DNA of 22,688 nucleotides from a virus: positions 1 to 22,688 of IMG/VR virus record IMGVR_UViG_3300018080_000619; one strand, written 5' to 3'. Under the pieces are notes generated by a model, which saw only the letters and a program-made list of their open reading frames with translations, did not search any database and was not told the DNA's origin. This document shows, one piece after another, positions 3,950 through 21,768 of this stretch. A program made the translations under genes and the position numbers. How positions within the stretch are numbered: the first letter of the stretch is position 1; every line of letters starts with the position of its first letter.

Positions 3950-4587
3950 GGTATCTCCTGCAGCGTCAGTTCAAAGTCAGTCAGGCGACCGGTGATGTCA
4001 GTCATCTTCTCGCCTCTCAGCAGCCCGGTGAACGCTGGGAATCCAACCGTGTTCTCGAACGTCAGATTCTCAGTGATCTGCTCGGTCAGCAATACCTGGT
4101 TCGGGCCCACGTTCGTCAGCTCGGCCACCTGACCAACCTCCTCGTCTCGGTCCAGCACGAAGAAGAATGAGGCGTGGTTGTTCAGGTACCAGTAGTTGGA
4201 CAGGTCGGTCGTGGTTGGCAGTGTCGTCTGGCCCACCATCGAACCCGTCCCGGAGAACTCCACTGGCTCCACGTACAGCGGGCAGTAGAACGGCGTGCCG
4301 TGTCGCAGCCGCAGCCAGTTCTCGATGCGCGCATGGTACACGTGATGCGAAATGAGAACCTTCTCAGTTATGAGCGGCCGGCTCATCAGCGACGCACGGT
4401 ACTCCTTGTTCTCGTCGCTCTCAGTGACGGACGACATCTGCTCGTACTCGACACTGACTTCCTTGCGCCAGTCCGGCATGAACAGCACGTACCTGGTCGC
4501 GTTCAACGGAATATCGAGCTCGGGCGCAATGCCTTTGTACCAGCCGTCGCCGTATGCGCATTCTCCATAGGTGTCGAACTCGGCCAT
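3946..4587 (-). CDS. distal tail/baseplate protein
   Basis: A 213-residue tail protein that begins MAEFDTYGECAYGDG. The block FMPDWRKEVSVEYEQMSSV (residues about 36-54), followed by an E-x-R-x-x-L-x-x-R-P motif, resembles the N-terminal part of many phage tail proteins that start with P-x-W...T-x-v...s...G-x-E-x-R...R-P-R. A later WLRLRHGTPFYCPLYVEP block matches the R-x-G...P-x-w pattern shared with the next gene. The start is an ATG overlapping the radical SAM stop by one base (TGATG), and the end overlaps the next start by four bases. In an ordinary siphophage this gene would directly follow the tape measure; here two extra genes intervene. Likely part of the distal tail ring; the exact family is uncertain. 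Confidence 0.7.
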   Translation of the reverse strand: MAEFDTYGECAYGDGWYKGIAPELDIPLNATRYVLFMPDWRKEVSVEYEQMSSVTESDENKEYRASLMSRPLITEKVLISHHVYHARIENWLRLRHGTPFYCPLYVEPVEFSGTGSMVGQTTLPTTTDLSNYWYLNNHASFFFVLDRDEEVGQVAELTNVGPNQVLLTEQITENLTFENTVGFPAFTGLLRGEKMTDITGRLTDFELTLQEIP

Positions 4588-5462: not shown

Positions 5463-6448
5463 GTGGCCGACTCATACCAGAAGTGTCCGCACACCCATTT
5501 CGTGTTGCCGTTGCCCCACACGTCACCCGCCACCTTCGAGCCATTGTTGTTGAGGAGTGCCTTGGGGCCCGCGACGTTGATCACGACCGACGTGTTCAGT
5601 CGCGTGCCTCCTCCGCCAATCTCGCCGGCCGCTATGCGCGCCGTCACCGCGTCCTGGTTCGGCGCGAATGGAATGTCGAACTCCGTGGCGACGAGGTTGC
5701 CCGTGCCCGCGATGTCGAACTCCACGAACACCAGGCGTCCGACCTTCTTGTACCGGGCGGTGTTGGACGTGTACGCAGAGAACCCAGTCGAGTTGGTTGT
5801 GTACGCCTGCCAGATGGCTTTGTAGATGTCTCTGGTGCCGGACTCAAGGATGACGTCAGTGTTCTGAATCTTGATACCCGTGCCGCTCGAGTCCTGCAGA
5901 CTTATCCCCGCCGCGCCACCAGCTCGGATGGCATACCCGTTCGAGATCTCAATGTAGCTGTCGTCACGACGTATCCGCAGCATGTAAAACCCGTCACACG
6001 CCAACGTCATCCGGTGGTTCGTCGGGTTGTACTCGATGTATCCGTCGAGTTGTTTCGACGGGTTGCTCCAGATGATTCGTCCGACGTTAGTGGCGGGCGT
6101 CAGGAACTCGAGTGAGGCGGTTCCGTCACTCTCCAGTACAAGTATGGATGACGACTGTGCCGCGATCGTCCCGGCGGTGGCCTTGAAGATGTGCAAGAGC
6201 GCATCTGGGTCCGCGGTCGCGAGTCCCTGGCCGATGACGATGTTACCGGCGGCGTCGGCGTGAATAGCGGGGTCAGGACTGCCGTCAGACGCGACGAGTT
6301 TAGAGTGCTTGTGCTCGTTCACCACTAGCGTCTGCGACTGCTCCGGCAACTTGTCGATGATGGCCTTGAACAGGTCGAGCTCGCGGCTGCTCCAGTTGGA
6401 GGGTTCCGCGATGCTGTTCAGTTCGTACCCGCGATAGTCTTGTGGCAT
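5459..6448 (-). CDS. tail fibre or tail appendage protein
   Basis: A 329-residue protein with features of tail fibres. An AAGNIVIGQGLATADPDALLHI stretch (a GN-x-x-IG...LLHI pattern) sits near residues 67-88. A beta-rich middle section follows. The C-terminal domain contains WQAYTTNSTGFSAYTS and ARYKKVGRLVFVEFDI, then IPFAPNQD, a layout found in many phage tail proteins (A-R-Y-k-x-i-G-x-l-v-x-v...lPf-p). The start has AAGGAG nine bases upstream, overlapping the tape measure stop. Its position between tape measure and distal tail genes is unusual, since fibres normally come after the tail tip. It is coupled by ATGA to the radical SAM gene and may be that enzyme's substrate. Receptor or host surface partner cannot be inferred. 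Confidence 0.8.
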   Translation of the reverse strand: MPQDYRGYELNSIAEPSNWSSRELDLFKAIIDKLPEQSQTLVVNEHKHSKLVASDGSPDPAIHADAAGNIVIGQGLATADPDALLHIFKATAGTIAAQSSSILVLESDGTASLEFLTPATNVGRIIWSNPSKQLDGYIEYNPTNHRMTLACDGFYMLRIRRDDSYIEISNGYAIRAGGAAGISLQDSSGTGIKIQNTDVILESGTRDIYKAIWQAYTTNSTGFSAYTSNTARYKKVGRLVFVEFDIAGTGNLVATEFDIPFAPNQDAVTARIAAGEIGGGGTRLNTSVVINVAGPKALLNNNGSKVAGDVWGNGNTKWVCGHFWYESAT

Positions 6449-6460
6449 GTGCGTTTCTCC

Positions 6461-9280: not shown

Positions 9281-9281
9281 G

Positions 9282-9913
9282 TCACTTTCCCTTCGCTATT
9301 TTCGCTAGCTCAGCGATCTTGTCTTTCGGACTGGCTTCAGAGGGAGAACCTCCTCCCCGAAGTTTATCTGGCGCATGGAGGGCGGTCGCAGTGCGCAGAG
9401 CCTCGGTTTGGAGATTCTCCTGTGCAGCCATGAAGTACGTCTCCACCTTATCGATGCTGTACTCATACAACACGTCGTGTTCAGAATGACCACGAGCTAT
9501 GAGGGCTTCGACGGCCCGGACGAGTTCCCACTCGACATCGAGAGGGCGAGTCCCTGGAGTACCTCGCTCGCCGGGCCCAACAAGTTTTTTAGGTGGTTGA
9601 TGTTCTGACGCATGATGGTCAGGGCAATTATCGTCGCGTCACCAAAAGGAATCTGACCCGCCTCCTCCGTATCCACCCCCAAGGTCACCGCAATGAACCG
9701 TGACAGGCGAGGAGCAATCGCCTTCACTACTGCCATCGGGTTCTCCTGGAACTGGTCCATCGTCAGACCAGCCACGACCAGTTCCCTGGCCGTCGCATCA
9801 ATGTCCTCTGCCAACTCGACTGCCTGGGCGAGAGTCCACGGCCGTATCACGTGGCCACAGACCTCCTGCTCAGGTATCAGTGTTGTCACATCTGCCTTCT
9901 TACCCTTGTTCAT
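9282..9913 (-). CDS. tail assembly chaperone long form (gpG-T), made by -1 frameshift
   Basis: This is the long form of the tail chaperone, expected from a -1 ribosomal slip at the A AAA AAC heptamer (9590-9584). After the slip the frame reads LVGPGERGTPG, then ELVRAVEALIARGHSEHD, LYEYSIDKVETYFMAAQ and on to a TGA at 9282. The slip adds 100 residues, for about 210 in total from the ATG at 9913. The added tail is rich in charged helix-forming residues and has no credible start or ribosome site of its own, as expected for a T-type extension. In lambda and many siphophages the G and G-T forms coat the tape measure and recruit tail tube subunits; both are absent from the finished virion. The tape measure ATG lies one base after this stop. 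Confidence 0.85.
9497..9913 (-). CDS. tail assembly chaperone short form (gpG-like)
   Basis: The zero-frame product is 138 residues from the ATG at 9913 to a TAG. It lies between the major tail protein and the tape measure, the fixed place of the tail assembly chaperone. A helical segment (TLAQAVELAEDIDATARELV) and a central IAPRLSRFIAVTLGVD segment fit a small chaperone that binds the tape measure. A GTG at 9916 is also in frame, but GGAGGG lies seven bases ahead of the ATG at 9913, so I prefer that start. The last 28 codons follow the slippery site and end in a Ser-Gly-Pro-rich tail, which is typical of unslipped chaperone forms. Sequence similarity to known gpG proteins is not obvious by eye; the call rests on position and frameshift. 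Confidence 0.85.
   Translation of the reverse strand: MNKGKKADVTTLIPEQEVCGHVIRPWTLAQAVELAEDIDATARELVVAGLTMDQFQENPMAVVKAIAPRLSRFIAVTLGVDTEEAGQIPFGDATIIALTIMRQNINHLKNLLGPASEVLQGLALSMSSGNSSGPSKPS
9545..9590 (-). promoter_or_regulatory. programmed -1 frameshift site (A AAA AAC plus downstream stem)
   Basis: The minus strand has CTA AAA AAC in the zero frame, so A-AAA-AAC (9590-9584) is a canonical X-XXY-YYZ slippery heptamer in the correct register. Eleven bases downstream GGCGAG (9572-9567) can pair perfectly with CTCGCC (9550-9545) across a 16-base loop. GAGG in that loop could also pair with a CCTC at the base of the stem as a pseudoknot, which is speculative. The -1 frame is open from here to 9282. 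Confidence 0.85.
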
Positions 9914-9940
9914 CACACGCCCTCCAGTGAGTTACGATGA

Positions 9941-10735
9941 CTACGAAGCGGCTGCTTCGTTGGTCGTCTTGTCGTACAGCACGAACCACGGCTCACTTGC
10001 GTGACCCGCAGCGTCCTTGAGCACTTCCATCTCGAACGGAATCTGGCCCCACTCCTCCGTGATCCACGGGATGTCGCCGGACGGCTTGATCTTCACCTTC
10101 CAGATCTCCATCTCGTACGTCGGACCAACAGCAGGAGCACCCACGAAGCGAAGGTAGCCCTCGATGGTGCTGTCGCTCAGTGCACTCACCTTCGGGTATT
10201 CCGTTGCGTCGTGGTTGTAGTCGACCAGTAGCGCCTGGCCTTCACTGATGCCGCCGCCAACGGTGGCCATGATACGGCCAATCGCGGTGTCGACTGTGAA
10301 GTCGGTGCCTTCCACGTACGTCACCGTGCCGGTCTGATCCGTCACGTTCACCGAGTGGACATTGCGCTTGGTCAACTCTGACCACTTGCCCAACCTTCCG
10401 GTGATGGGCTCGTTGGTCTGGTGACCGGTCGACTGCGTGTAGCTGGCCTCTCCTCCATCGTTCATCAGCGCGAGCTTCAGGTTCTCCCTGGAGTACTCGT
10501 CCAGGGTGAATGAACCAGTGAAACCAATGGAGGTATCGACACTCTTGTCCTTCTCCCTGATGCCGCTCATCGACTCGTAGTGATCGAGAGACTCGATCGC
10601 CGGAGTCAGGGTGAACGCGGGAGTATTCCCGAGGTCGATTTCGCCCGTCCGATTCCCATCAGAGTCGAGGCGGTCGAAGTAGACCTTGCCTTTTCCCAAG
10701 ATGTAGTTGTCGGTGTCGGGACCGAAACGTGACAT
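9941..10735 (-). CDS. major tail (tube) protein
   Basis: A 264-residue protein, the building block of the tail tube. It follows the tail terminator and precedes the chaperones, the standard place for this gene. The N-terminus NYILGKGKVYFDRLD, followed by a GNTPAFTLTPAIESLDHYES segment, is characteristic of siphophage major tail proteins: a beta strand, an acidic turn, then the S-x-x-x-L-x-H-x-x-S block. A second part (GTVTYVEGTDFTVDTAIGRI) resembles the strand-rich region that continues the tube fold. The C-terminus ends Asn-Glu-Ala-Ala-Ala-Ser before TAG; readthrough would add only three codons before a TAA. The start has a GGGGGTG purine run upstream, in an eleven-base gap after the previous gene. 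A strong assignment. Confidence 0.9.
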   Translation of the reverse strand: MSRFGPDTDNYILGKGKVYFDRLDSDGNRTGEIDLGNTPAFTLTPAIESLDHYESMSGIREKDKSVDTSIGFTGSFTLDEYSRENLKLALMNDGGEASYTQSTGHQTNEPITGRLGKWSELTKRNVHSVNVTDQTGTVTYVEGTDFTVDTAIGRIMATVGGGISEGQALLVDYNHDATEYPKVSALSDSTIEGYLRFVGAPAVGPTYEMEIWKVKIKPSGDIPWITEEWGQIPFEMEVLKDAAGHASEPWFVLYDKTTNEAAAS

Positions 10736-10746
10736 AAAGTCACCCC

Positions 10747-11214
10747 CTAGTAGTTAAGTTGAGTGAACGGGTCGGCGTACTTGGTCAGGTAGCGGATCTC
10801 CAACCGCATGGTCAGTCCACCCAGGCCAAGAATTGAGTCGTCTTCCTCGTCCTCTAGAATGACGTAGAACTTGTCCGCACCAATCTCTCTGGTTACAGCG
10901 CGCAGCGCACGCAGGGAGCTTGCGTCGCCGTACAGCCGTTCCTTGATCTTACCGCGAAGGTTCTCCGCCTGCTTGTTGTAGTCTCTTCCTTCACACCATA
11001 TCGCTATGCTCGCTGAGATCGTACCGGCCTCCAACCGGCTACGGGCTTCGATGTATTCTGTGTCATCCCACACGAATGCCAGTGGGTACTTGGCAGTGTC
11101 CTGGTCGATGACCGCAGGTGGTCTTCCCTCAACCATCTCCGGGTCGAAGTCCGTGACCGACTTCACGTCAGTCACCAGTGCTTCCATGATTTGGATCTTG
11201 ATTGTGTCAGCCAC
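10747..11214 (-). CDS. tail terminator-like protein
   Basis: A 155-residue protein directly before the major tail protein, where siphophages encode the terminator that caps the tail tube and joins it to the neck. It begins ADTIKIQIMEALVTDVKSV and has GRPPAVI, then PLAFVWDDTEYIEARSR, a layout seen in terminator and minor tail-U-like proteins: an N-terminal helix, a strand with W-D-D, then I-x-I-W-C-E-G. The start is a GTG at 11214 with CGGAG eight bases upstream, overlapping the stop of the upstream neck gene by eight bases. It ends with TAG, which indicates TAG is a working stop in this phage because readthrough would run far into the next gene in another frame. Assigned by position plus pattern; not a sure family call. 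Confidence 0.75.
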   Translation of the reverse strand: MADTIKIQIMEALVTDVKSVTDFDPEMVEGRPPAVIDQDTAKYPLAFVWDDTEYIEARSRLEAGTISASIAIWCEGRDYNKQAENLRGKIKERLYGDASSLRALRAVTREIGADKFYVILEDEEDDSILGLGGLTMRLEIRYLTKYADPFTQLNY

Positions 11215-11836
11215 GTTGCAACTCCGTGATGATGTCTATGGGTATCTGCCGTTTGACTTGTTTGACCTTCTGCCTCGGGTCCACCCGAGCCTTGATGACC
11301 ACCTTCTTCTTCAGTACGAACAACGGGACCAGGTTGCCGAACGTCTGGCCGGCACTCTTGCCCTTCTGCCGCACACGGCGACCCATGATTAGCAGGTTGC
11401 CGCTCCTGGACTTCATCACAAACGTGTCACCGAACACACCGCTGCGTGCGCTTCCCCTGGCCACACCAGCCTTAGTCTTGGCTGCGTCCAACGGGATGGT
11501 CAGGTAGCGCACGTTCTTCGGGCGGATGACGGTCTTCCGTCCACGCCTCCCAATGTGCACCCTGGCGTACGCCGTGCCAGCCGTGACGCCAGCCTCGACT
11601 CCAGTGGACGTGACCACCGCTCGCTTCGCCTTGACGTTCTGCCGCAGCTTGCCGCTTCTGACCGACACCGACTTGGACGACGTGGGCCCGGACAAGTCCT
11701 CAGTTCGTATGCGACTGACCAGGAGGACAACGGCCAGGTTGAACGACTTCTTGGTGGCACGAATGACCTTCGCCCTGCTGTACTTCCGCAGCAGCTTCTC
11801 GACCTCCTTCTTGCCAAGTACATTGAAGCTAAGCAC
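11207..11836 (-). CDS. neck protein, HK97 gp10-like
   Basis: A strongly basic 209-residue protein between the connector-region genes and the tail terminator, the usual position of HK97 gp10-like neck proteins that help join head and tail. The N-terminus (LSFNVLGKKEVEKLLRKY) is the usual G-x-x-x-L-x-x-x-L helix. A SVSVRSGKLRQNVKAKR segment matches the s-G-x-L-r-x-s motif of this family, and TAYARVHIG the Y-a-x-x-h-x-G element. The frame extends to an ATG at 11869, but I chose the GTG at 11836: it has GGAGG nine bases upstream and overlaps the previous gene's TAG by eight bases, while the longer start would overlap it by 41. Length is a little above the typical 130-180 residues. Confidence 0.8.
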   Translation of the reverse strand: MLSFNVLGKKEVEKLLRKYSRAKVIRATKKSFNLAVVLLVSRIRTEDLSGPTSSKSVSVRSGKLRQNVKAKRAVVTSTGVEAGVTAGTAYARVHIGRRGRKTVIRPKNVRYLTIPLDAAKTKAGVARGSARSGVFGDTFVMKSRSGNLLIMGRRVRQKGKSAGQTFGNLVPLFVLKKKVVIKARVDPRQKVKQVKRQIPIDIITELQRG

Positions 11837-12343: not shown

Positions 12344-12682
12344 TCAGAGCGTGTAGTATTTGTGACGGTCAATGGCTATCTGCACGTCAGACAACCACTC
12401 GGCCACCTCCATCTTCGACAGCGTGCCATCCGGTGCAGTTACCGACACCAGGCCAAGGTCCTGGCGCCGACTGAACTCGTAGGCACACTGCTTCATCAGC
12501 GGCCGCTTCAGTGCGGCCGGCATGTCACCCGCGTCCTCGATGTCGTCGTTGTCCATGTAGTCCACGGCGATGGCGAGCACATCGTCAATGATGCTGGTCA
12601 GCACCGCGTCGTAGCCGCTGATGCTGTTCAGCTTCTGAAGGTAGTTGGCCTTCAACTCGGCAACCGTGATTGACACGCTCAT
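12344..12682 (-). CDS. head-tail connector (gp6-like) protein
   Basis: A 112-residue, mostly helical protein that begins the neck module. It has the shape of gp6-type head-tail connectors that bind the portal vertex after packaging: an N-terminal helix (VAELKANYLQKLN), an acidic stretch with two helices, then LKRPLMKQCAYEFSRRQD, which matches the k-x-A-i-x-x-q-x-a-y-x-x-x-R-R pattern, and a C-terminal AEWLSDVQIAIDRHKYYTL. The ATG overlaps the upstream CgeB-like gene by four bases (ATGA) even though that gene belongs to the sugar block, so the block and the neck genes form one translational chain. In phages without such a block the connector gene normally follows the capsid gene closely. Confidence 0.75.
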   Translation of the reverse strand: MSVSITVAELKANYLQKLNSISGYDAVLTSIIDDVLAIAVDYMDNDDIEDAGDMPAALKRPLMKQCAYEFSRRQDLGLVSVTAPDGTLSKMEVAEWLSDVQIAIDRHKYYTL

Positions 12683-13542
12683 GTCACCACTCCTTCCTCA
12701 ATCATCCAGCGGGCCCGCGCGTCATACGAGTGCTTGCGCTGGACCTGGTGGCAGCCGTTCGCCGCGATGGCCTCACGCTCGTGCGGGTGTGTGAGATAGT
12801 AGTCGATCTTCTTCAGGCACTCGTCAACGCTGCGGTAGACGTCCAGGTGGACACCAGGCGTGAACATGTTCAGCAGGTTGTCCGTTGGATTCGTCAGCAG
12901 GAACGTGCCGGCGCCCATGGTCTCATATGTTCGGTAGTTGAGGTCGACGCTGTAGTTGCGATTCAGGTGGATGCGGTAGCTGCGAACGGCCTCGACCATC
13001 GCGTCGCCCAGGACGCGGATGTCGGTCTGTATACGGGCCCGTTTCGCGACCTTCTCGTAGAACGGCCGGCGACCTGTCACCCAGGAGCCGCAGAAACCCA
13101 CGTCGTGCCGCTTCTCGCCGCGTCTGACAGGCTGTATCAGGTCGGACGGGTAGGCGTTAGGGCACCAGCGCGCCTGGCGACCTGGGCCCTTCAGCGCATT
13201 CACGTGCGCGGCTACCGAACACAGGACCATGCTGAACTTGTAGGCGTCACACTCCTGGACGTGACGGTTCATCGCGACGTGACTGTCGACGCACCAGAAC
13301 ACCCGGGGCCCGTGGAAGTGACGCAGCGTCCGCGGCAGCCACTTCGTCATCCCGTAGTTCTCGACAACCAGGACAGTCGTGGCTGCCGCCAGGAGCTCGT
13401 TGAACGCGGCGAACGACTCGTACCCAAGGCCGGTGACCTGGTTCGGGATGCCCTGCCTGGTGAACGCACGTGACAAGCACTCGCACTCGCGGTACTCACG
13501 GTTCTCAGGGTGCTTCCCACGGCTTTGGATTATCAGGAGCAT
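12679..13542 (-). CDS. CgeB-like glycosyltransferase (GT-B)
   Basis: A 287-residue GT-B type glycosyltransferase, the last gene of the sugar block. The C-terminal half carries NYSVDLNYRTYETMGAGTFL, then a run reaching LLNMFTPGVHLDVYRSVDE, and HPHEREAIAANGCHQVQRKH. This is the classic arrangement of CgeB/DUF3880-type transferases (N-x-R-x-y-E-x-m-a-s-G...L-t-n, a later G-x-h-l-x-x-y...L, then the h-p-x-e-r-x-x-i-a-x-x-g-x-x-x-v-x-x-x-h-s-y motif). The N-terminal domain is short but folds as a Rossmann-like half with VLVVENYG. The enzyme would transfer a nucleotide-activated sugar onto a glycan or protein acceptor in the cytoplasm; donor and acceptor are unknown. GGAG lies six bases ahead of ATG 13542, inside the end of the upstream gene (10-base overlap). 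Confidence 0.85.
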   Translation of the reverse strand: MLLIIQSRGKHPENREYRECECLSRAFTRQGIPNQVTGLGYESFAAFNELLAAATTVLVVENYGMTKWLPRTLRHFHGPRVFWCVDSHVAMNRHVQECDAYKFSMVLCSVAAHVNALKGPGRQARWCPNAYPSDLIQPVRRGEKRHDVGFCGSWVTGRRPFYEKVAKRARIQTDIRVLGDAMVEAVRSYRIHLNRNYSVDLNYRTYETMGAGTFLLTNPTDNLLNMFTPGVHLDVYRSVDECLKKIDYYLTHPHEREAIAANGCHQVQRKHSYDARARWMIEEGVVT

Positions 13543-14111
13543 CGTATCTCCGTGACGTCAGGTAGCTGTTCAATCAGCAGTGTCATTGGTCCAAACATTC
13601 GGTTGATTGCGACACGGTTCGTCGCGGTCAGTTGTTCCTTCCAGTTGCTCGCTCGAGGCGCGAACTCGAACGGCTTGTCCTGACCCACCCACTCCTGCAT
13701 GCGCTGGCGAACCGCCGGCTTGCTCAGTGCCTCATACCGCACGAACATAATGTCGTAGTTGCGCGGGTGATGTGTGAGCCAGCCCTTCAGATGCTCGTAC
13801 AACATGTACGCGTCGTACTCGTCCTGGAGGTAGTCAACGACCGTCCACTCCTTGCGCTGCGCCAGGTACTTCACGTTGCCGCTGACGTGCTTGCAGTGTT
13901 CGTATGGTGCCTTCATGAATCCACGTCGGAAGAAGGACATCAGCTGGTTGCGTGGGTCCCCGAAGACGTACATGAACCGCTGCCTGCCGATATGCACAAT
14001 CGGTGAGCGCGTGTGCGGACTCATGCGTGACTGGCTCCAGTACGGACGACCCCACTCCTCTATGGCGTAGGTTCCGACTCCTCCAGTCGAGAGCAGGTGC
14101 AGGTTGTTCAT
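13533..14111 (-). CDS. sulfotransferase-like protein
   Basis: A 192-residue protein that looks like a compact sulfotransferase. LHLLSTGGVGTYAIEEW (residues 4-20) can be the 5'-phosphosulfate-binding loop, a GG-x-G-T version of the P-loop. RFMYVFGDPRNQLMSFFRRG (45-64) matches the 3'-phosphate-binding R-D-P-r-d-x-x-x-S-x-x-R-R element, although a Gly replaces the usual Arg before Asp. YDIMFVRYEAL and a later ASNWKEQLT fit the E-x-L and x-W-K segments near the end of the fold. It would move a sulfate from PAPS to a sugar hydroxyl. At about 190 residues it is shorter than the usual 250-300. It overlaps both neighbours by 4 and 10 bases. No PAPS synthesis gene is visible, so PAPS would come from the host. 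Confidence 0.65.
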   Translation of the reverse strand: MNNLHLLSTGGVGTYAIEEWGRPYWSQSRMSPHTRSPIVHIGRQRFMYVFGDPRNQLMSFFRRGFMKAPYEHCKHVSGNVKYLAQRKEWTVVDYLQDEYDAYMLYEHLKGWLTHHPRNYDIMFVRYEALSKPAVRQRMQEWVGQDKPFEFAPRASNWKEQLTATNRVAINRMFGPMTLLIEQLPDVTEIRCS

Positions 14112-14752
14112 ACCTTCTCCAGCACGTACGTCATCGGGTGCAGGTGCATCGCGCGTACACTTCCTTCCAAGTGGTCCATCGTGTCTACCATGTTCAACAG
14201 CAAGCTATCTATTGTCCACCGGTCGTTGCACTCCGTCTCCGGAATGTTCCGGCCGCGCCAGTTCCCGCGTTTCTGCTCGGACACCAGGCGGTCGCCCAGG
14301 TACGTGCATTTCATGTCCTCGAGCACGTAGATTCCACCTGACCGCACGTACTTCCAGAGGTGCTTGAACGAGGCGATCGTCAGGCGGTTGACGTGGCTGC
14401 CGTCGTCGATGATGATGTCGAACTTGCCGCCACCGGCGTCCACCGCGCGGTCCAGGTCCTCAGGCTTCTCCTGGTCGCCAATGACGATGCGCGCCTTCCT
14501 GTACTTGACGTCCGCACACCGCGCGTCGTAGTCAAACCCAACCACGGCTGCCGCCGGGTGCTCGAAGTAGTCCTCCCACACACGTATGCTGGCGCCGCGC
14601 TTGACCCCGATCTCGAGGATGGACACAGGCACGGACTTCCAGCGACAGAAGTATTGCTCGTAGATGTCCATATAGTTCCGTCCCTGGAACGTGTGATGAA
14701 CGTCCACCTTGTCGGTGCCGTGCTTCTGCCCTAGCTGTTTCAGACCGGCCAC
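14108..14752 (-). CDS. SAM-dependent sugar O-methyltransferase (MycE/CmcI-like)
   Basis: A 214-residue class I methyltransferase. It opens with LGQKHGTDKVDVHHTFQ, the K-H-G-T-D-K...H-x-Y element typical of the MycE/MycF and CmcI-like sugar methyltransferases. SILEIGVKRGASIRVWEDYF (44-63) is the SAM-binding motif I region; FDYDARC follows as the acidic end of strand 2. FDIIIDDGSHVNRLTIASF (111-129) holds the D-D-G-S-H cluster that in this family binds a metal ion and catalyses. YVLEDMKCTYLG (142-153) gives the expected E-D motif. It would put a methyl on a sugar hydroxyl, most likely capping a glycan made by the neighbouring transferases. The start is a GTG with GGGAG eight bases upstream; it overlaps the previous gene by 13 bases. 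Confidence 0.85.
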   Translation of the reverse strand: MAGLKQLGQKHGTDKVDVHHTFQGRNYMDIYEQYFCRWKSVPVSILEIGVKRGASIRVWEDYFEHPAAAVVGFDYDARCADVKYRKARIVIGDQEKPEDLDRAVDAGGGKFDIIIDDGSHVNRLTIASFKHLWKYVRSGGIYVLEDMKCTYLGDRLVSEQKRGNWRGRNIPETECNDRWTIDSLLLNMVDTMDHLEGSVRAMHLHPMTYVLEKV

Positions 14753-15450
14753 TTCGGAACTCCCTGCACCGAGTACGCCTGGCCGACGAAGTTTGTCGGC
14801 GCCGTTCTCGGCACGCTGAACGGGTGGCCACCGCGACCAGGTGCGGTGCTTTCGTCATGTATGTACGTGCAGTCCTTCACGTGCGGCCACACCGCGTCGG
14901 CCAGCCACTCCTGGTCGCTGAACGGCAGGTGACCGACCCGCGGCTTGCTCTGGCTCATCGGCGTAGACAGGACGTGTTCCAGGCGCGCGTCGTAGCTCGC
15001 CCTCAGGTCAGGAACCAGTTCGTGCACGGCGTCCGGGACGCAGCCCCACATGCCGCCCATCAGCGGCGCCGTGTGGGAGCGGTGGTCCCGCATCACGTGT
15101 ACTGGCTCGCCGGACTCCAGCCACTCGAACACACAGACCGTCTCGCGGTCGCTTGGCCGGCTGTCGGTGTCCCGGAACAGCACGTGGTCGACCTCCTCGT
15201 CGAACAGCGCATCCAGGCGCCAGTACAGACCCACTCGCCGCGGGTCTCCGTCCGGCTGGCCGATTCGCACCTCCCCACCGCGCTGTACGATCTCCGCGGC
15301 GAGACGCGTCAGACCAGGCGCCAGATAGAACCTGTACGTCCAGTCCGGGTAGTGGCGCTCACGCAGCACCAGGTTCGAGATGGCTCCACGGGTGTAGACC
15401 GGGTCCTTGCCCCAGACCGCAAACGCAATGATGTTCTTACCGCCTTGCAT
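14740..15450 (-). CDS. putative GT-A glycosyltransferase with DTD motif
   Basis: A 236-residue protein that is probably a GT-A type glycosyltransferase. It begins MQGGKNIIAFAVWGKDPVY and later has VDHVLFRDTDSRPSDRE (residues 88-104), where D-T-D (94-96) would be the metal and nucleotide-sugar-binding DxD motif, then PVHVMRDHRSHTAPLMGGMW (116-135), a loop like those beside the acceptor site. I chose the ATG at 15450 over the in-frame start at 15483 because a perfect AAGGAGG lies six bases upstream. It overlaps the upstream gene by 14 bases and the methyltransferase by 13. I cannot name the CAZy family. Confidence 0.75.
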   Translation of the reverse strand: MQGGKNIIAFAVWGKDPVYTRGAISNLVLRERHYPDWTYRFYLAPGLTRLAAEIVQRGGEVRIGQPDGDPRRVGLYWRLDALFDEEVDHVLFRDTDSRPSDRETVCVFEWLESGEPVHVMRDHRSHTAPLMGGMWGCVPDAVHELVPDLRASYDARLEHVLSTPMSQSKPRVGHLPFSDQEWLADAVWPHVKDCTYIHDESTAPGRGGHPFSVPRTAPTNFVGQAYSVQGVPKWPV

Positions 15451-16159
15451 ACCCAACCTCCTTAAGAGTCTTCGCAATTTCATTGGCGACGCCCTCCACT
15501 CGCTTGTAGCCAGCTGCCTGTGGCAGCTTCACCGTCTGCAGTCGTGTCCAGGTAGAGTCACGATGCTCCGGCTTCAACTGTCCGTTGTGCTCGTGCCTGA
15601 TGTGCACGTCCGGCAGGTAGCGAAGGAGGCCGCACATCTGGCCAACCTGCTTCCACACTGTGTCTATCATGTCCGCTGCGAACGGCGCCATGAACTCGTG
15701 CCTGGTAGCGCGCACCAGTTTCCGGGACGTGACTAGGTGCACGCACATCTTCTCGTGCTGGATGTAGTCATCGTCACCGTATACGATGGCGACGCCTTCG
15801 TCCTCGTTCAGTGCGGCCAGGAACGCGGTGTCCCATCCTTGCGAGACGAACACCATATCGTCACCGAACATGCTGACTGCCCAGTTGTCTTGCCAGTGCT
15901 CGGTCTCGGCGTAGCACCGGTTGTAGAAGTACGCCAGGTGCGGAGCCTTGGTCTCCAGGTTCCAGATGATCTGGTAGCTGACCAGGTCGTCACACTCGGA
16001 CTCTATGGCCGTGACTGTGTCCACGTCACCGATGTCAACCACGAACACCACGTGCAGCCGGCCAACGTCGTCCGCGGTCTCCTTCATGGACGACAGGAAC
16101 TTTCGCAGCCGGTCTGGCCGCTTCCGAGTTGGCAGGAATATGTTGATTCCTTCAAGCAT
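15437..16159 (-). CDS. GT2-like glycosyltransferase (GT-A)
   Basis: A 240-residue GT-A enzyme related to family 2. It starts INIFLPTRKRPDRLRKFL (residues 5-22), the usual p-t-r-x-R-p-x-x-L nucleotide-binding start. WAVSMFGDDMVFVSQGWDTA (93-112) carries the DxD-type acidic motif in the form G-D-D, followed by the g-W-d element that such enzymes show. A second acidic cluster lies at YGDDDYIQH (127-135). The enzyme likely adds a sugar from a nucleotide donor to a glycan; the donor and acceptor are unknown. The ATG at 16159 overlaps the previous gene by eight bases, with GGAG eleven bases ahead. Its C-terminus (EIAKTLKEVGYARR) contains the ribosome site of the next gene. Confidence 0.8.
   Translation of the reverse strand: MLEGINIFLPTRKRPDRLRKFLSSMKETADDVGRLHVVFVVDIGDVDTVTAIESECDDLVSYQIIWNLETKAPHLAYFYNRCYAETEHWQDNWAVSMFGDDMVFVSQGWDTAFLAALNEDEGVAIVYGDDDYIQHEKMCVHLVTSRKLVRATRHEFMAPFAADMIDTVWKQVGQMCGLLRYLPDVHIRHEHNGQLKPEHRDSTWTRLQTVKLPQAAGYKRVEGVANEIAKTLKEVGYARR
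15457..15463 (-). promoter_or_regulatory. ribosome binding site deciding the 15450 start
   Basis: AAGGAGG on the minus strand ends six bases before the ATG at 15450 (spacer TTGGGT). It is a full match to the anti-Shine-Dalgarno core and selects the 236-residue start over the in-frame one 33 bases upstream. The site lies inside the end of the upstream glycosyltransferase gene. Confidence 0.8.
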
Positions 16160-16973
16160 CGAGTGCGAACTCCTCTATACGTTTGAGGTACGGTCGCGTC
16201 ACCAGGCCGTCCCACCCGTCCAACATCGCTCCCAGGTCGAGAGCCATGCCGCCGTGCTGCTTGACCAGGTGGCAGTATATCTTGCCAAGGCCACCAGCAC
16301 CGACGATGAACAACCGCCCGGCCAGCGACCCTTGCGACTGAATCGTCTCGCAGATCTTGTGGTACCGCTGCGGATAGTGTGGTCCACCGGTCCAGGCGTC
16401 CACGAACTTCTGCAAGCCGCTGTTGGTGCGGTGCCACATGAAGTGCTCCGGCTGGATGAGTTCAGCACGGACGGTCTTCAGTTTCGGGAACCGCTCCTTC
16501 AGTTTCGCCGGCAGCCGGTCACGACACGTGATGATGTCCAGGTGCGTCCGCCTCTTAATGATCGTTTGGAACGTCGCCAACTGCCGCCACAGAGTGAAGA
16601 TGTCATAGAAGTAGAACGTCGCTTTCTTCGGCATGTGCTTGTTCACGAACTTGTCGACGCCGTTCCACTTCGGATACCCGTACGCCTCACGGAAGCACGG
16701 GATGCCGAGGAAGTCGCACTGCCTGAACGACGCCAGTATGAGTTCCGCCAGTCCAACCAGCTCGGTGTGCTTCACGCTGGTGGCGTTGTCTTTGCCGAAC
16801 CACCTGGTGAACTTGTCCATGAACTCGGTGTCGTTGTGAACGATGCCGGCCGCATACTTGCACACCTCGTACTCACCGTCACCGAACCGCAGCAGGCTGA
16901 ACGGCTTGCCAGCCTCAACCGCGCGCAGCAAGCGGATGTTCAGTCTGTCGGGGGTGAGCCAGCTCAGTGCCAT
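16152..16973 (-). CDS. GT-D fold glycosyltransferase, second of a tandem pair
   Basis: A 273-residue GT-D (DUF1792) family protein. The hallmark SLLRFGDGEYEV (26-37) includes D-G-E (32-34), the D-x-E motif that replaces DxD in this fold. A C-terminal VGAGGLGKIYCHLVKQHGG, then ALDLGAMLDGWDG, is the second hallmark, near residues 224-257. Between them come QCDFLGIPCFRE and IITCRDRLPAKL. GT-D enzymes are known from glycosylation of serine-rich bacterial adhesins, where they extend protein-linked glycans. The frame is open back to 17192, but the ATG at 16973 overlaps the previous TGA by one base and has GGAG seven bases upstream. The neighbouring upstream gene is clearly a paralogue of it. Confidence 0.85.
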   Translation of the reverse strand: MALSWLTPDRLNIRLLRAVEAGKPFSLLRFGDGEYEVCKYAAGIVHNDTEFMDKFTRWFGKDNATSVKHTELVGLAELILASFRQCDFLGIPCFREAYGYPKWNGVDKFVNKHMPKKATFYFYDIFTLWRQLATFQTIIKRRTHLDIITCRDRLPAKLKERFPKLKTVRAELIQPEHFMWHRTNSGLQKFVDAWTGGPHYPQRYHKICETIQSQGSLAGRLFIVGAGGLGKIYCHLVKQHGGMALDLGAMLDGWDGLVTRPYLKRIEEFALDA

Positions 16974-17740
16974 CACAGTCTCCAGGTGTCTATCTCGTTT
17001 TTGATGTGCGTGCGAGTTAGCTTGCCGGCCCACCCGTCGAACAGGCTGCCCACGTCCAAGGCAACTCCACCTCGTTCCTTCACCATCTTTGCGTATATCT
17101 TCCCTGCCCCGCCGGCGCCGATGAAGAACACCTGGCCAGGACGACAGTGCTGGTCCAGCCACCGCGGCATTGCGCTGAACAGTGTCGGCCAATGCTTCAA
17201 CCCGTTCGCCATGTCCGGGCCCACCAGCGGCTTCAGCTGCGGCGGCAGGTAAAAGAACTCGATCTCCTTCAGTTCATGGCACGTCCGCCTCAGCTCCTTG
17301 CGGACGTCGCGACACGTGATGCAGCAGAGACGTTCGACACCCTGGATGAGCTTGGGTATCCAGCGTTGCCGCTGTATCCACAACACCGAGTCCATCCCAC
17401 ATATCTCCTGGCCGGAGTGCAACAGCTTCTCGGCGTGGATGATGCGGAGGACACTGCGCCAGTCCGAGTTGAGGTGCATGTGCCGTGTCTCCGGGACGCC
17501 GACCAGGTCGCAGTGCTTGACGCTGTCACGCACCTGGTCTGCGAACCGCTTCAGGTCCTCGTCGCTCATACCCTTGCAGCCGAACCACTTATCCAGGCGC
17601 TTCACGTAGCGGTCGCGTGGCGTCTCGTTCGGGTAGCCCAGGACGATGCCCTCACCGTCGCCGTACCTGGCGAACATGAACGGGTTTCCACGTTGCACGG
17701 CTTGCCGCATCTTGTTGTACGCACCTTCGTGGTTTATCAC
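16973..17740 (-). CDS. GT-D fold glycosyltransferase, first of a tandem pair
   Basis: A 255-residue GT-D (DUF1792) protein. It has FMFARYGDGEGIVLG (21-35) with D-G-E at 28-30, then HCDLVGVPETRH, ITCRDVRKELRR, and a C-terminal IGAGGAGKIYAKMVKERGG, then ALDVGSLFDGWAGKLTR. It shares all these blocks, in order, with the next gene, so the two arose by duplication, though they have diverged widely in between. I chose the GTG at 17740: it overlaps the upstream stop as GTGA and has a GAGGGGGTGG purine run ahead, whereas the ATG at 17794 would need a 58-base overlap. It should act in the cytoplasm on a protein-linked or lipid-linked glycan; the sugar is unknown. Confidence 0.85.
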   Translation of the reverse strand: MINHEGAYNKMRQAVQRGNPFMFARYGDGEGIVLGYPNETPRDRYVKRLDKWFGCKGMSDEDLKRFADQVRDSVKHCDLVGVPETRHMHLNSDWRSVLRIIHAEKLLHSGQEICGMDSVLWIQRQRWIPKLIQGVERLCCITCRDVRKELRRTCHELKEIEFFYLPPQLKPLVGPDMANGLKHWPTLFSAMPRWLDQHCRPGQVFFIGAGGAGKIYAKMVKERGGVALDVGSLFDGWAGKLTRTHIKNEIDTWRL

Positions 17741-18666
17741 AGCCACCCCCTCACGGCCGTCATCACCTGGCCGACAGACAGCTGCTTCATGCACCGCGGG
17801 TCATCGCACTTCTCGAATGGCCCGACGTACTGACAGGGCACGCACTCCACGTTGGCACGCACTATCCGGTTGCGGTGGTTCACGGGCCCGTTCTTCGAGA
17901 CCAGGCTGCCGCCGAACAACACCACCTGGTCGACGTCCACCGCGTCCGCTATGTGCATCAGGCCGGTGTCAGTCGTGACCAGGAGCTCGACCATCCACTG
18001 CAGCACCGCGGCCGTCTCCGTGATTGACAGCGCGCCGGTCAGGTCCAGATCCAGGTCGACGCCACGCAGCTCACGTGGTCCACCCACGCCGACGATACTG
18101 ACACCGTATCGCTTTCGCAGCAGCTTGGCCAATGTGTTGAAGTGCGGCCAGCACTTGGGCCCACGCATCTTGGCGAACCCACCATTGCACAGGGCAACCC
18201 ACCGGCTGCGCGCCTCGAAGACGTCCTTCAGGTTCGCCGGCACCTTGGCCAGGGGAACACGCTGCGGCGGCGTGTCACCGACGTACTCAAAGCACTGGCG
18301 CGCGATGTTCATGTAGTAGTCCATCTCGTGCATCAGTCCCTTGCGCCAGTTCACCTTGTGCCCGATGTTCGGGTTCTTCGCCTGGAACAGCTGGAGTGCT
18401 GCGGACCCTTCGCTGTGCCTGGAGTAAAACCACCTGGTGTACTTCCGTGGGTTCAGTGCCTCGGCCGGGTGACGAATGACCTTGCGCACGAACGGGCTTT
18501 CCTTTATGAGCTCCATGACCGCTGGTGTCCGGGAGTCCTCCCAGTCACTGTCCACGACCATGTCGATCTTGCCGCTGTCCTCTTGACTAGCTATCGCCTG
18601 AAGTGCTGGAGTCATCAGCACCCAGTTTCCGATTCCGTTTTTGAAGTAGGCGGCCGTGGAGGTCAT
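17737..18666 (-). CDS. GT9 (heptosyltransferase-family) glycosyltransferase
   Basis: A 309-residue protein of family GT9, the family of ADP-heptose:LPS heptosyltransferases. It begins AAYFKNGIGNWVLMTPALQA (residues 5-24), the usual g-x-G-D-x-x-x-x-t-P-a-l start with Asn in place of Asp. PKCWPHFNTLAKLL (170-183) corresponds to the K-x-W-P motif, and LLVTTDTGLMHIADAVD (228-244) is the s-x-D-T-G-x-x-H-x-A-x-a motif at the donor site. The C-terminus holds CVPC (275, 278), then Cys287 and Cys292, as in many GT9 members. The GT9 family uses several donors, so an LPS role is not implied. The start has two purine runs (AAGGAG and GAAGG) in the 14-base gap. Confidence 0.88.
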   Translation of the reverse strand: MTSTAAYFKNGIGNWVLMTPALQAIASQEDSGKIDMVVDSDWEDSRTPAVMELIKESPFVRKVIRHPAEALNPRKYTRWFYSRHSEGSAALQLFQAKNPNIGHKVNWRKGLMHEMDYYMNIARQCFEYVGDTPPQRVPLAKVPANLKDVFEARSRWVALCNGGFAKMRGPKCWPHFNTLAKLLRKRYGVSIVGVGGPRELRGVDLDLDLTGALSITETAAVLQWMVELLVTTDTGLMHIADAVDVDQVVLFGGSLVSKNGPVNHRNRIVRANVECVPCQYVGPFEKCDDPRCMKQLSVGQVMTAVRGWL

Positions 18667-18680
18667 ATTCCTTCTTCTCC

Positions 18681-19286
18681 TTAGACCGCGACTTGCTTCG
18701 GGGTACGGGGACTTTCGTTGACCGTCTCACATTCGCCCTCCGTGAAGAATGGTGACAGGACCTCGCGCAGGTACATGTGGAAGCAGTACAGGTCCTCCAT
18801 CAGGTACATCCTCAGGCCACGCCTCTTGCACTTGTCGTAGTAGTCCACGTCCACGTGGAAGAAGCTGTCTGTCTTGAAGCCGCCAACCATCTTCCAGGCA
18901 GCCTTGCTCGTCATCATGAAGAATCCACTGAACCGGCAGCCGCGCGTCTCGGTGTGGTCGCGTATGATACCTGCCCGCGTCTTCCACAGGTTCCTGGCGA
19001 ACTCACGGTGATAGTTCATGTCGAAGTTCTCAGGGTCGACACCAGGAGCGACCTGTGTCTTGCAACCGATGCGATTCGTGAAGCAGGTGACCAGGCCGGC
19101 GCGGTCGCTCACACGGTCGATGGCGCGGCAGCAGATCTCATGCCACCGCGGGTTCATAATCATCACGTCGTAGTCCATGAGGATTGCCCAACCGTCCTCA
19201 GGCAGCCGCTCCATCTCGCGGTTGTACGCGCGGCCGATGCAACGCTCCTCCATGAACGGGACGATGACTGGCAGGTGGCGGTTCAT
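18681..19286 (-). CDS. GT-A glycosyltransferase with DYD motif
   Basis: A 201-residue GT-A type glycosyltransferase. It starts MNRHLPVIVPFMEERCIGRAY and has WAILMDYDVMIMNPRWHE (33-50), with D-Y-D (38-40) as the DxD motif. RFSGFFMMTSKAAWKMVGGF (118-137) matches the g-x-x-m-x-x-r-x-a-w-x-x-v-G-G-F acceptor-loop pattern of family 2, and FFHVDVDYYDKCKRRG (142-157) the E-D-x-D-y-x-x-R-x-x-x-x-G helix with Asp in place of Glu. The frame is open back to 19370, but the ATG at 19286 overlaps the upstream stop (ATGA) and has GGAGG eight bases ahead. It is shorter than a typical GT2 (about 250) because the N-terminal nucleotide-binding part is brief. Confidence 0.8.
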   Translation of the reverse strand: MNRHLPVIVPFMEERCIGRAYNREMERLPEDGWAILMDYDVMIMNPRWHEICCRAIDRVSDRAGLVTCFTNRIGCKTQVAPGVDPENFDMNYHREFARNLWKTRAGIIRDHTETRGCRFSGFFMMTSKAAWKMVGGFKTDSFFHVDVDYYDKCKRRGLRMYLMEDLYCFHMYLREVLSPFFTEGECETVNESPRTPKQVAV

Positions 19287-20392
19287 TCGACCACCTCCTC
19301 GACGGCCTTCCAGAAGTCCGCCGGTGCACGTGACAGCTTGTCGCGCATGTCTTCGTCGTTGAACTCCCAACTGACGTGACCGACCTTCTCATTGACTATG
19401 GGCGTGCAGCCACACAGTCGTGACTCGAAGTATACACGCTCGCCTGCCCAGTCCTGCACCGGCTGGTGGAGCATGAACTCGCACCGGCTGTAGTGCTTGA
19501 CCATCTCGTGCCTTGGGCACCGCTTGATGTACTCCACTCTTTGTGGCGGCAGCGGGATGGCACACTGGCCGATGATGAGGAGGTTGCGGTCCGGGTTCTG
19601 ACCCAGGTACGTCTCCAGGTCGTGCGGGTTCATCTTCTGCGGCGTGGGAACGATTGTCAGACCACGCTCTCGCTTCATGCCGTGTGCCGGCTTGTACACG
19701 TCCACCTCGATGGCCAGGGGAAGCACGACCGACCTGGCAGTGCACTCGGCGCCCAAGGCCTTCTGATAGATACCCTGGTGCAGCGGCGAGATGAACACGA
19801 CCAGGGCCGCGTCCCGGAACAGCGGCCGCGAGATATTGACACGCCTCAGCTCACGAAGGTCATGCTCGTACTTGACGTACGGTACACGCTTCTCATGCAG
19901 CAGCTGGCGGACCGTCGTCAGCTGAGACGGACTGAACTCGAAGAAGTTGTTGACGACAACCAGGTCTGCCTGGCCGAGCACCCTGGTGTCGAACAGGGAG
20001 GGAGTGACGCCCACGATGTCATAGCCGAGTTGTTCACCGACCTTGACTACCGCGTAGTTGCTGAGTTCAGCTCCGCCGACCTTCTTGAAGTCCTGTATCC
20101 AGGCCACTCGTCGGCCGGCGGAGTTGGGATTGAATCCAGTCGTTCGCTTCAGATACTCTGGTGCGTGGGCCGGTGGTACAGACGGGGTGCGAGCCGCGGC
20201 CGCAGATGGCGAACCAGCTTGGTCCGCGCGCGTGAGTGAGGACTGCTGCTCGTCACCATTCTCTGTATCGAACTCCACCAGACCCAGTGAGGCCAGCTCA
20301 TGGGCTTTGGACTCGTCCTCAAAGAGGAAGTCACCGTAGTGCCTCTTGAGGTCTTCGTCTATGACACGACATCGTATGAATCCTCCACCCAT
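19283..20392 (-). CDS. GT-B glycosyltransferase fused to a small phage-type N-terminal domain
   Basis: A 369-residue two-part protein that opens the sugar block. Residues 1-45 (MGGGFIRCRVIDEDLKRHYG, then an acidic FEDESKAHELASLGLVEF) resemble the small proteins often coded just after phage major capsid genes: a short beta strand, a charged part, then an E-L...G-L/A-v/a-e end. A low-complexity Ser/Ala/Pro linker (about 46-80) leads to a GT4-like GT-B domain. The domain starts RRVAWIQDFKKVGGAELSNY (94-113), with the G-G-A-E motif, has ADLVVVNNFFEFS and AALVVFISPLHQGIY, and ends with ERVYFESRLCGCTPIVNE (318-335), an E-x-x-x-x-G motif of the donor site. The start at 20392 has GGAGG ten bases upstream; the open frame back to 20569 would overlap the capsid gene. 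Confidence 0.8.
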   Translation of the reverse strand: MGGGFIRCRVIDEDLKRHYGDFLFEDESKAHELASLGLVEFDTENGDEQQSSLTRADQAGSPSAAAARTPSVPPAHAPEYLKRTTGFNPNSAGRRVAWIQDFKKVGGAELSNYAVVKVGEQLGYDIVGVTPSLFDTRVLGQADLVVVNNFFEFSPSQLTTVRQLLHEKRVPYVKYEHDLRELRRVNISRPLFRDAALVVFISPLHQGIYQKALGAECTARSVVLPLAIEVDVYKPAHGMKRERGLTIVPTPQKMNPHDLETYLGQNPDRNLLIIGQCAIPLPPQRVEYIKRCPRHEMVKHYSRCEFMLHQPVQDWAGERVYFESRLCGCTPIVNEKVGHVSWEFNDEDMRDKLSRAPADFWKAVEEVVE

Positions 20393-20421: not shown

Positions 20422-21768
20422 TTACGAAGTAGCATCGTTGAGTATCGCAAACGCCTTCGGCACCGCCGGCTTTCCGTCCATCCGTGCGACGAAGCGGATA
20501 CCCGTCTCGTCGTACTCGAACCGCGAGTGGATGGAGGTGTCGATGGTCAAGGCCTGACGCGGCGTCCACAGGTACATGGACAGGTCGCCGAGAATCAGGT
20601 CACCCTGGCTGCCGAGTGCCGGAACGTTCCGGGTCCGCATGACAGGGTAGCTGACCATTGATGGCGGATGCAAAGGCTGCCCACTGAACACCGCGTAGTC
20701 GGCCATGAAGATCGGCCGCTGGTTGTTGTCACGCAGTGCCATGAGCGTGTTCTGCGTCGTCTTCCTGCACATCCAGGTGAGGTCCGTGAAGTTCTCATCC
20801 AGTGCGTTGTCCAGGTTGACTACGTCAGGGTACGAGATGGTGCCCGCAGCCGTCCGAGCGATGATGTTCACGCTCGGGTCGTTCACGATTCCCATCGGCT
20901 GGCCCGTGCCGCTGCCGGCGATGATGACTCTCTCCATCTCATACTGGAATGCTCTGGTGAACAGGCCAGTGATGTAGTTGGTGATGTTGATCATCGAGTC
21001 GGCAATCAGCTCGTCGGTCAGGTAACACAGCCCGATGAGCTTCTGCGCGGTGAAGGTCAGCTGCTGGAACTGCGGCTTCGTCTTGGTCTTCAGCTCGGCC
21101 TCGTCCTTCCAGTACAGCGTGATGCCGCCGAAGTACGAACCTGCCGCCTGTACCAGCCGCGGGATCTTCAGCACGTTGCTCGACATCGGCAACTGCCAGA
21201 CCCGCGAGAGAATCGGTGACTGCTGCGTGGCGAACTCGATGACGGTCGCAGCATACTCGACCGGCACCAGCACTCCGCCGTCCGCGGCAACACCTTCGGA
21301 CATCCCAGCAGCCTTGTACTCCTCCAGGCACGTCTCGTTGTAGTCCTTGAGATTGATGCCGGCAGCAACCATCTCGTGCGGCTGGAACCTGCACTTCATG
21401 ATGGTCACGAAGTCCTGCACCTGCTTGGAGAGCCTCAGCCACGGTCCGCCGGCGTGAAGCAACTGCTTGGCCATCAAGATGCTGTTGGCCTTGATACCGG
21501 CGCGCCCGTTGAAGCGGTACGACTTGTTGAAGAATGAGCAGTCGACGACACTGTCGCCAATGCCCTGGAGACACTCGTCACCCAGCGAGCTCGTCGGGAA
21601 GACGGACTTCTGCCCGGCCTCTTTGATCTCTGCCTTCAGCTCTGCAATCTGCTCGGCCGTCTGTCCCTTCACGGCCTCCACGCAGATCGACTTCAGATCG
21701 TCAACAGAGATCTCCTGCGGTTCGTCGGTGGCGACGGGGGTTCCCTGGTCTTTGTCCTTGGGGTCCAT
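20422..21768 (-). CDS. major capsid protein, HK97 fold
   Basis: A 448-residue HK97-type major capsid protein. Residues 1-60 are charged and helical (EAVKGQTAEQIAELKAEIKE), like the delta domain that is removed or acts as an internal scaffold; a cut somewhere after residue 50 is plausible. EGVAADGGVLVPVEYAATVI (158-177) begins the N-arm and spine region, followed by QSPILSRVWQLPMSSNVLKI. VIIAGSGTGQPMGIVND is the highly conserved G-x-G-x-x-x-P-x-G-i block of the A domain, and a YDETGIRFVARMDGKPAVP segment near the C-terminus is the usual f-x-x-d-x-x-x-x-R-x-x-x-R-x-d-g-x-v strand. The ATG directly follows the TAA of the upstream gene. Its 3' flank leads into a large block of glycan genes rather than into a connector gene. 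Confidence 0.95.
   Translation of the reverse strand: MDPKDKDQGTPVATDEPQEISVDDLKSICVEAVKGQTAEQIAELKAEIKEAGQKSVFPTSSLGDECLQGIGDSVVDCSFFNKSYRFNGRAGIKANSILMAKQLLHAGGPWLRLSKQVQDFVTIMKCRFQPHEMVAAGINLKDYNETCLEEYKAAGMSEGVAADGGVLVPVEYAATVIEFATQQSPILSRVWQLPMSSNVLKIPRLVQAAGSYFGGITLYWKDEAELKTKTKPQFQQLTFTAQKLIGLCYLTDELIADSMINITNYITGLFTRAFQYEMERVIIAGSGTGQPMGIVNDPSVNIIARTAAGTISYPDVVNLDNALDENFTDLTWMCRKTTQNTLMALRDNNQRPIFMADYAVFSGQPLHPPSMVSYPVMRTRNVPALGSQGDLILGDLSMYLWTPRQALTIDTSIHSRFEYDETGIRFVARMDGKPAVPKAFAILNDATS

Follow-up and report, generated by a model that had tools for sequence, protein, structure and literature searches.

The window analysed here is the whole IMG/VR virus record IMGVR_UViG_3300018080_000619, a linear fragment of 22,688 bases. 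It harbours a block of ten genes on the minus strand (20392-12679), with the major capsid protein (MCP) gene on one side and a small connector-like gene on the other. This block is probably a virion glycosylation cassette which builds an O-glycan on the terminal serine of the MCP and of the major tail protein. A glycan on the capsid or tail had been proposed in the original prediction from this DNA, and this is supported by the present data; the C-terminal serine shared by the two proteins goes beyond that proposal in naming the MCP and the major tail protein. The block can be described as a candidate conserved virion glycosylation cassette with a specific acceptor prediction, the link to the acceptor being the new result.

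The last residue of the MCP was found to be serine in 42 of 44 block-bearing phages (the two others end in threonine and glutamine, respectively), compared with 13 of 86 relatives lacking the GT-B glycosyltransferase gene of the block (Fisher P 4e-20, a value which ignores shared ancestry). The entropy at this position is 0.31 bits, against 1.9-2.8 bits at the preceding seven, and the serine is located 4-7 residues past the last conserved leucine. Since both the preceding residues and the distance from the leucine vary, it is the end of the MCP itself that is constrained and not an aligned column.

The major tail protein, which is unrelated to the MCP in sequence, ends in serine in all 14 block-bearing phages in which it was first seen. 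In both proteins the serine is kept while the residues next to it and the length differ among phages. Further block-bearing phages were fetched afterwards as a test, and here the protein was Ser-ended in 7 out of 7. A scan of tail-protein homologues, whose sample overlaps the first 14, revealed a serine end in 16/16 phages with the block versus 5/38 without it; the MCPs of these 16 phages also end in serine wherever they were found. Two of the five Ser-ended proteins without block (L251 and L263) lie on short contigs and seem to be copies of proteins from block-bearing phages. Homologous tail proteins of cultured phages end in valine or alanine instead (terminal serine in 0/6). Connector, neck and tail-completion proteins of the same block-bearing phages never end in serine (0/42), and the frequency in other proteins is approximately 6%. 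Because the C-terminal serine is common to the MCP and the major tail protein, both are likely targets.

In a different group of phages whose tail proteins are homologous (L275-L279), several virion genes end in runs of threonine or serine. The major tail protein of L275 ends in ...TTTTTTTTTT and an MCP-family protein of L276 in ...KAGTTTTT, with further cases in L277 and L279. They may serve as tails for O-glycosylation at multiple sites or result from repeat expansion; neither the GT-B nor the GT9 profile of the block gave a match in L275-L279.

Terminal serines were also found in independent lineages. In L143, the MCP next to a GT9/GT-B/GT9 set (7665-11757) belongs to an unrelated family (phrog_138, E 6e-63) and ends in LVSS; the location of this set next to an unrelated Ser-ending MCP suggests a transfer of either the cassette or the capsid gene. 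A GT2 gene is located one to two genes past an MCP ending in VPSVS in L058, L060 and L061, while the MCP of L063, a relative without the GT2 gene, ends in VPQA. Among mycobacteriophages, capsid and tail-tube proteins are both Ser-ended in Che8 (KTGS/SDGS) and in the Corndog-like phages Firecracker and Catdawg (LVGS/KGDS), and neither is in D29, TM4, Bxb1 and Cosmo. Myrna was left out of this comparison, since the stretch examined does not include its capsid gene and its tail tube could not be assigned with confidence. Che8 and Corndog are reportedly among the phages studied by Freeman and colleagues in 2023. Glycans have been reported at the C-termini of mycobacteriophage capsid and tail-tube proteins (Freeman et al. 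2023, Cell Host Microbe, pmid 37329881, as cited in PMC12619734). The Corndog-like enzymes are encoded between portal and protease and were suggested to modify the capsid (PMC4351075). With moderate confidence, it is proposed that the C-terminal serine of MCP and tail tube serves generally as the acceptor of virion O-glycans in phages and has been arrived at repeatedly with unrelated enzymes. In the large group of uncultured phages to which the window belongs, an exchangeable, serotype-like cassette would serve this acceptor, and a small domain that different glycosyltransferases have in common would tether its first enzyme to the capsid.

Several observations weigh against the terminal serine as acceptor. 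GT-B is present in L159, yet the MCP ends in glutamine, and in L076 a glycosyltransferase cluster lies downstream of the MCP gene, yet the protein ends in TIP. A tail-chaperone-like protein encoded after the major tail protein (w18, window 9497-9916, minus strand) ends in serine in 9 of 12 block-bearing phages and should not be in the virion. Many tail proteins of phages without the block end in threonine, which could be an O-glycan acceptor too. Moreover, the counts overstate independence because the block-bearing phages share ancestry. The strength of the assignment is the agreement of two unrelated proteins, of a second MCP family, of a second type of glycosyltransferase and of the mycobacteriophages.

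The serine end of w18 would also fit with glycosylation of virion proteins at internal sites, or of other proteins such as fibres or decoration proteins, the terminal serine being kept for assembly. The same holds for the MCP of L102, which is Ser-ended with no glycosyltransferase nearby. This explanation is nevertheless unlikely, since the two unrelated proteins share the serine end almost only when the block is present, Che8 and the Corndog-like phages share it as well, and bacterial enzymes recognising a C-terminal serine sequon do exist, namely the pilin transferases PilO/TfpO (PMC12645811).

An alignment scan of IMG/VR with GT-B yielded 73 loci with 57 distinct GT-B sequences. Fifty-one of them are located within 2.6 kb downstream of an MCP gene of the same family, and L143 adjoins the MCP of the other family mentioned above. 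The only GT-B homologues found without an adjoining MCP are five remote ones (L184, L188, L190, L192 and L193). A connector or neck gene follows GT-B at a distance of 1.0-8.4 kb in 17/17 loci where it was recognised, and GT9 is found downstream in 25 of the 27 loci with at least 6 kb of downstream sequence. Nearly all MCP relatives (50-86% identity) of sufficient length have GT-B directly after the MCP; in L053, an exception, a GT2 enzyme fused to the N-terminal domain of GT-B takes its place. As a check, the original prediction had called for related phages to be compared for gain or loss of the entire block between the capsid and connector genes. The block was found to be kept there and to vary there: L003 has all ten genes in unchanged order at 38-55% identity, and L002 lacks the methyltransferase alone. 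In many loci GT-B opens the interval and GT9 closes it directly ahead of the connector, while the middle differs. Pfam analysis of 85 middle proteins identified GT2 enzymes (14), methyltransferases, hexapeptide acyltransferases, DegT-type aminotransferases, GT17, WbqC and PIG-L deacetylases, and an additional NAD-dependent epimerase is encoded in L155. The interval behaves as an exchangeable glycan locus with a variable middle of transferases and nucleotide-sugar enzymes. In L191 (5575-6664, same contig as L007), GT-B is split in two overlapping frames (5575-6012 and 5996-6664), which reflects a frameshift, an error in sequencing or an enzyme made of two parts. No relatives of GT-B or GT-D were detected in cultured phages (50,697 phage records). 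A scan of 84,980 species genomes, at the patterns used, revealed no close MCP, and five genomes tried with GT-B gave no match. No link was found between this phage and actinobacteria, whose phages had been invoked in the original prediction.

All ten block genes are under purifying selection. The ratio of nonsynonymous to synonymous differences (pN/pS) is 0.23-0.45 for the nine genes that the closest relative has; for the methyltransferase gene, missing from that relative, it is approximately 0.42 against a second one. A chance arrangement of the block is excluded. The variable middle might also be expected of a passenger (moron) cassette without any role in the virion. Hardly any weight is given to this view, as the block is kept over MCP divergence down to approximately 50% identity with the above pN/pS values, and as GT-B is found at 51 MCP-adjacent loci.

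The ten same-strand genes predicted between capsid and connector genes from 12679 to 20392 were recovered at exactly these coordinates, and the coupling of the last gene to the connector gene by ATGA (overlap of 4) was confirmed. Overlaps had been claimed for nearly every junction. Most junctions indeed overlap, by 4 bases between GT-B and GT-A and by 4, 1, 8, 47, 13, 4 and 10 bases from GT9 onward, but MCP/GT-B and GT-A/GT9 are separated by gaps of 29 and 14 bases. The overlap of 47 between the GT2-like and the DxD gene is reduced to 14 if the latter starts at the better-supported and likely ATG at 15450, near which its homologues also start.

Out of the eight predicted glycosyltransferase-like genes, six are supported by family (Pfam, PHROG) and GT-B by its fold (Table 1). 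The eighth, the DxD gene, is a putative glycosyltransferase by its invariant RDxDSR motif, Pfam and PHROG searches having returned no family match. Comparison of the GT-B model with PDB gave 120 matches at E <= 0.001, the best being Gtf3 of Streptococcus (E 2.4e-10), with GtfC of Limosilactobacillus also matched; as the fold is common, this is taken as a resemblance and not as an assignment. Both GT-D genes exceed the Pfam cut-off for PF22882. In their R-x-GDGE motif the R, GD and E residues are invariant (18 sequences), and the metal-binding DxE feature of the GT-D family is present. The predicted likeness of the methyltransferase to MycE was borne out, its DDGSH-type metal/active-site region (IIIDDGSHVN) being aligned with TylE and MycE. 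For the predicted sulfotransferase-like protein, all 13 PDB profile matches listed are sulfotransferases, which stands in favour of the call; the matches are weak (from E 2e-4) and the fold model is poor (predicted local distance difference test, pLDDT, of 51). Motif-like stretches (STGGVGT and GDPR type) are present, which may correspond to the 5' and 3' PAPS-binding motifs of sulfotransferases. A sulfotransferase fold derived from the structure model was set aside owing to the low quality of the model. The sulfotransferase identity is thus plausible but weak, and the glycan is perhaps sulfated.

The enzyme content bears on two further explanations. Firstly, the block could alter the glycan of the host surface, leading to serotype conversion or superinfection exclusion in the manner of gtr modules in temperate phages. 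Members of the GT9 and GT2 families typically occur in lipopolysaccharide and O-antigen loci, and WbqC and epimerase genes occur in relatives. However, flippase, polymerase and membrane glycosyltransferase are all absent from the block, and none of its proteins has a membrane segment, which makes a membrane-made host-surface glycan unlikely. In addition, the block nearly always adjoins the MCP gene and is coupled to virion genes, and no prophage with a close MCP was found in the 84,980 genomes at the patterns scanned. Secondly, the glycosyltransferases could modify phage DNA bases, as phage glycosyltransferases often act on DNA and the GT-B fold also matches the alpha-glucosyltransferase of T4. 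Against this, the window has no base-modifying genes, the capping enzymes have their matches in a macrolide-sugar methyltransferase and in sulfotransferases, and both the MCP adjacency and the link to terminal serines would be left unexplained. Serotype conversion and DNA modification were both rejected because the membrane and base-modifying genes are lacking, the former being judged very improbable and the latter scarcely conceivable.

In the AlphaFold2 model, the first approximately 40 residues of GT-B form a separate folded unit ahead of a disordered linker. The profile of this N-terminal domain was detected on a GT-A enzyme in L052, L054, L055, L057 and L134, and on the GT2 enzyme located directly after the MCP in L053. 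In L153, L170, L172, L182 and L186 it forms a short gene of its own, again immediately following the MCP. As it moves among glycosyltransferase folds and yet remains beside the capsid gene, it is best read as a putative docking domain. A 65-residue open frame right after the MCP in L102 (2345 onward) is weakly similar to it (E 0.0095), and glycosyltransferases may therefore have recruited the N-terminal domain from an ordinary protein encoded next to the capsid gene. The C-terminal domain of the L060 enzyme resembled the N-terminal domain by eye and was rejected as such, since the profile gave no support.

Taken together, virion glycosylation would proceed as follows. Soluble cytoplasmic enzymes would act in the infected cell during the synthesis of capsid and tail subunits, where the C-terminal serine of both the MCP and the major tail (tube) protein would receive an O-linked oligosaccharide. 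GT-B would probably bind with its N-terminal domain to the nascent capsid protein or close to it, and would start or prime the glycan. Extension would be carried out by the GT-A, GT9, two GT-D, GT2-like, DxD and CgeB-like enzymes, followed by capping by the methyltransferase and, less surely, by the sulfotransferase. As the middle of the cassette is exchanged among related phages, each lineage would wear its own glycan. The benefit would most likely be in hiding virion surfaces from whatever binds them, or in tuning contact with it.

In a large group of uncultured phages, the cassette is common and variable and has a fixed place next to the capsid gene. The serine end of both major shell proteins is a simple, readable mark that predicts which proteins would carry the glycan and at which residue. 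With this mark, a survey of all phage genomes is possible and the chemistry is testable. The data suggest that phages diversify the glycan of their particle surface much as bacteria do with O-antigens.

All likely genes of the window are encoded on the minus strand and form a siphophage-type morphogenesis operon (Table 1). The order is an acidic scaffold-like protein, the MCP, the ten-gene block, the connector-like protein (12682-12344), Neck1, a tail completion protein, the major tail protein, a chaperone-like pair, the tape measure protein and distal tail genes. Sigma-70 promoters and terminators showed no excess over chance in the region. A gene located among the distal tail genes (4587-5462, minus strand) codes for a radical S-adenosylmethionine protein with a CNLRCNYC motif (PF04055, E 8e-6, slightly below the Pfam cut-off), and no relative of it was present in 12 related phage records, some of which are fragments.

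Table 1. Features of the virion operon and of the ten-gene block, with the evidence for each
Feature	Position	Strand	Evidence and remarks
MCP, HK97-fold family, ends ...LNDATS	20422..21768	-	PF05065 E 7.6e-45, phrog_10 E 1.4e-59; proposed acceptor (terminal Ser)
GT-B glycosyltransferase, separate N-terminal domain (residues ~1-40), disordered linker (residues 45-68)	19283..20392	-	AlphaFold2 pLDDT 90.1; PDB folds
GT-A type glycosyltransferase, invariant DxD	18681..19286	-	phrog_14179 glycosyltransferase E 1.6e-15; D38/D40 invariant in alignment
GT9 (heptosyltransferase-like) glycosyltransferase	17737..18666	-	PF01075 E 1.5e-15; with GT-B the most widely kept enzyme
GT-D fold glycosyltransferase 1	16973..17740	-	PF22882 E 3.3e-11; R-x-GDGE motif
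GT-D fold glycosyltransferase 2	16152..16973	-	PF22882 E 1.7e-6; R-x-GDGE motif
GT2-like glycosyltransferase	15437..16159	-	phrog_14945 glycosyltransferase E 2.9e-15; DDM motif invariant
Putative glycosyltransferase, RDxDSR motif (DxD gene)	14740..15450	-	Motif invariant in 10 sequences; start reassigned to ATG 15450
Sugar O-methyltransferase, TylE/MycE kind	14108..14752	-	phmmer: TylE 8ia9 E 2.7e-18, MycE 3ssm E 3.2e-17; PF13578
Sulfotransferase-like protein	13533..14111	-	Profile against PDB: SULT1C3 E 2.3e-4, amine sulfotransferase E 1.3e-3
GT-B C-terminal domain protein, CgeB-like glycosyltransferase	12679..13542	-	PF13524 E 1.1e-28
Connector-like protein, downstream block boundary	12344..12682	-	Syntenic homologues ahead of neck gene in 25 loci; ATGA overlap with last block gene
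Major tail (tube) protein, Ig-like domain, ends ...NEAAAS	9941..10735	-	phrog_807 E 6.5e-59; proposed second acceptor (terminal Ser)

To our knowledge, the evidence for virion glycosylation in tailed phages comes mainly from a small number of mycobacteriophages. As in these phages, the glycosyltransferases are phage-encoded; the eight glycosyltransferase-like genes of the window lie inside the virion operon and would act on the virion. An O-methyltransferase is also encoded by the Corndog-like phages. The C-termini of mycobacteriophage capsid and tail-tube proteins are reported glycan sites, and both proteins are Ser-ended in Che8 and the Corndog-like phages; in the window the corresponding sites would be the serine ends of the MCP and the major tail protein. 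In contrast, the genes of the Corndog-like phages number four and are located between portal and protease, compared with ten between MCP and connector in the window, and their enzymes show no convincing match to those of the block (blastp best E 0.86; profile scores of at most 4.7 bits). Che8 differs in that no glycosyltransferase is annotated in its first 14 kb, which comprise the structural genes.

Similarities were also found with the loci for glycosylation of serine-rich adhesins in streptococci and lactobacilli (Gtf3, GtfC and the GT-D enzyme dGT1), namely the GT-B fold matches, the two GT-D enzymes and the O-glycans on serine, which are proposed in the case of the window. However, the Gtf1/Gtf2 pair, the accessory secretion system and the serine-rich adhesin were not seen in the window, and identity is only about 13-16%. 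The gtr serotype-conversion module is different, as its membrane flippase GtrA and membrane-bound GtrB/Gtr have no counterpart in the block.

The pilin oligosaccharyltransferases PilO/TfpO and TfpM use a C-terminal serine (or Ser/Thr) as sequon. The acceptor of PilO/TfpO is the major pilin subunit, and a C-terminal serine is likewise found here on the putative acceptors (MCP 42/44; tail protein 14/14 and 7/7). These enzymes are, however, membrane proteins moving a lipid-linked glycan, whereas the block encodes no membrane protein. O-antigen and capsule clusters differ from the block, which is part of a virion operon and lacks flippase, polymerase and ligase, but they have the same architecture, in which conserved flanking genes enclose an exchangeable set of genes for transferases, methyltransferases, acyltransferases and sugar-nucleotide enzymes.

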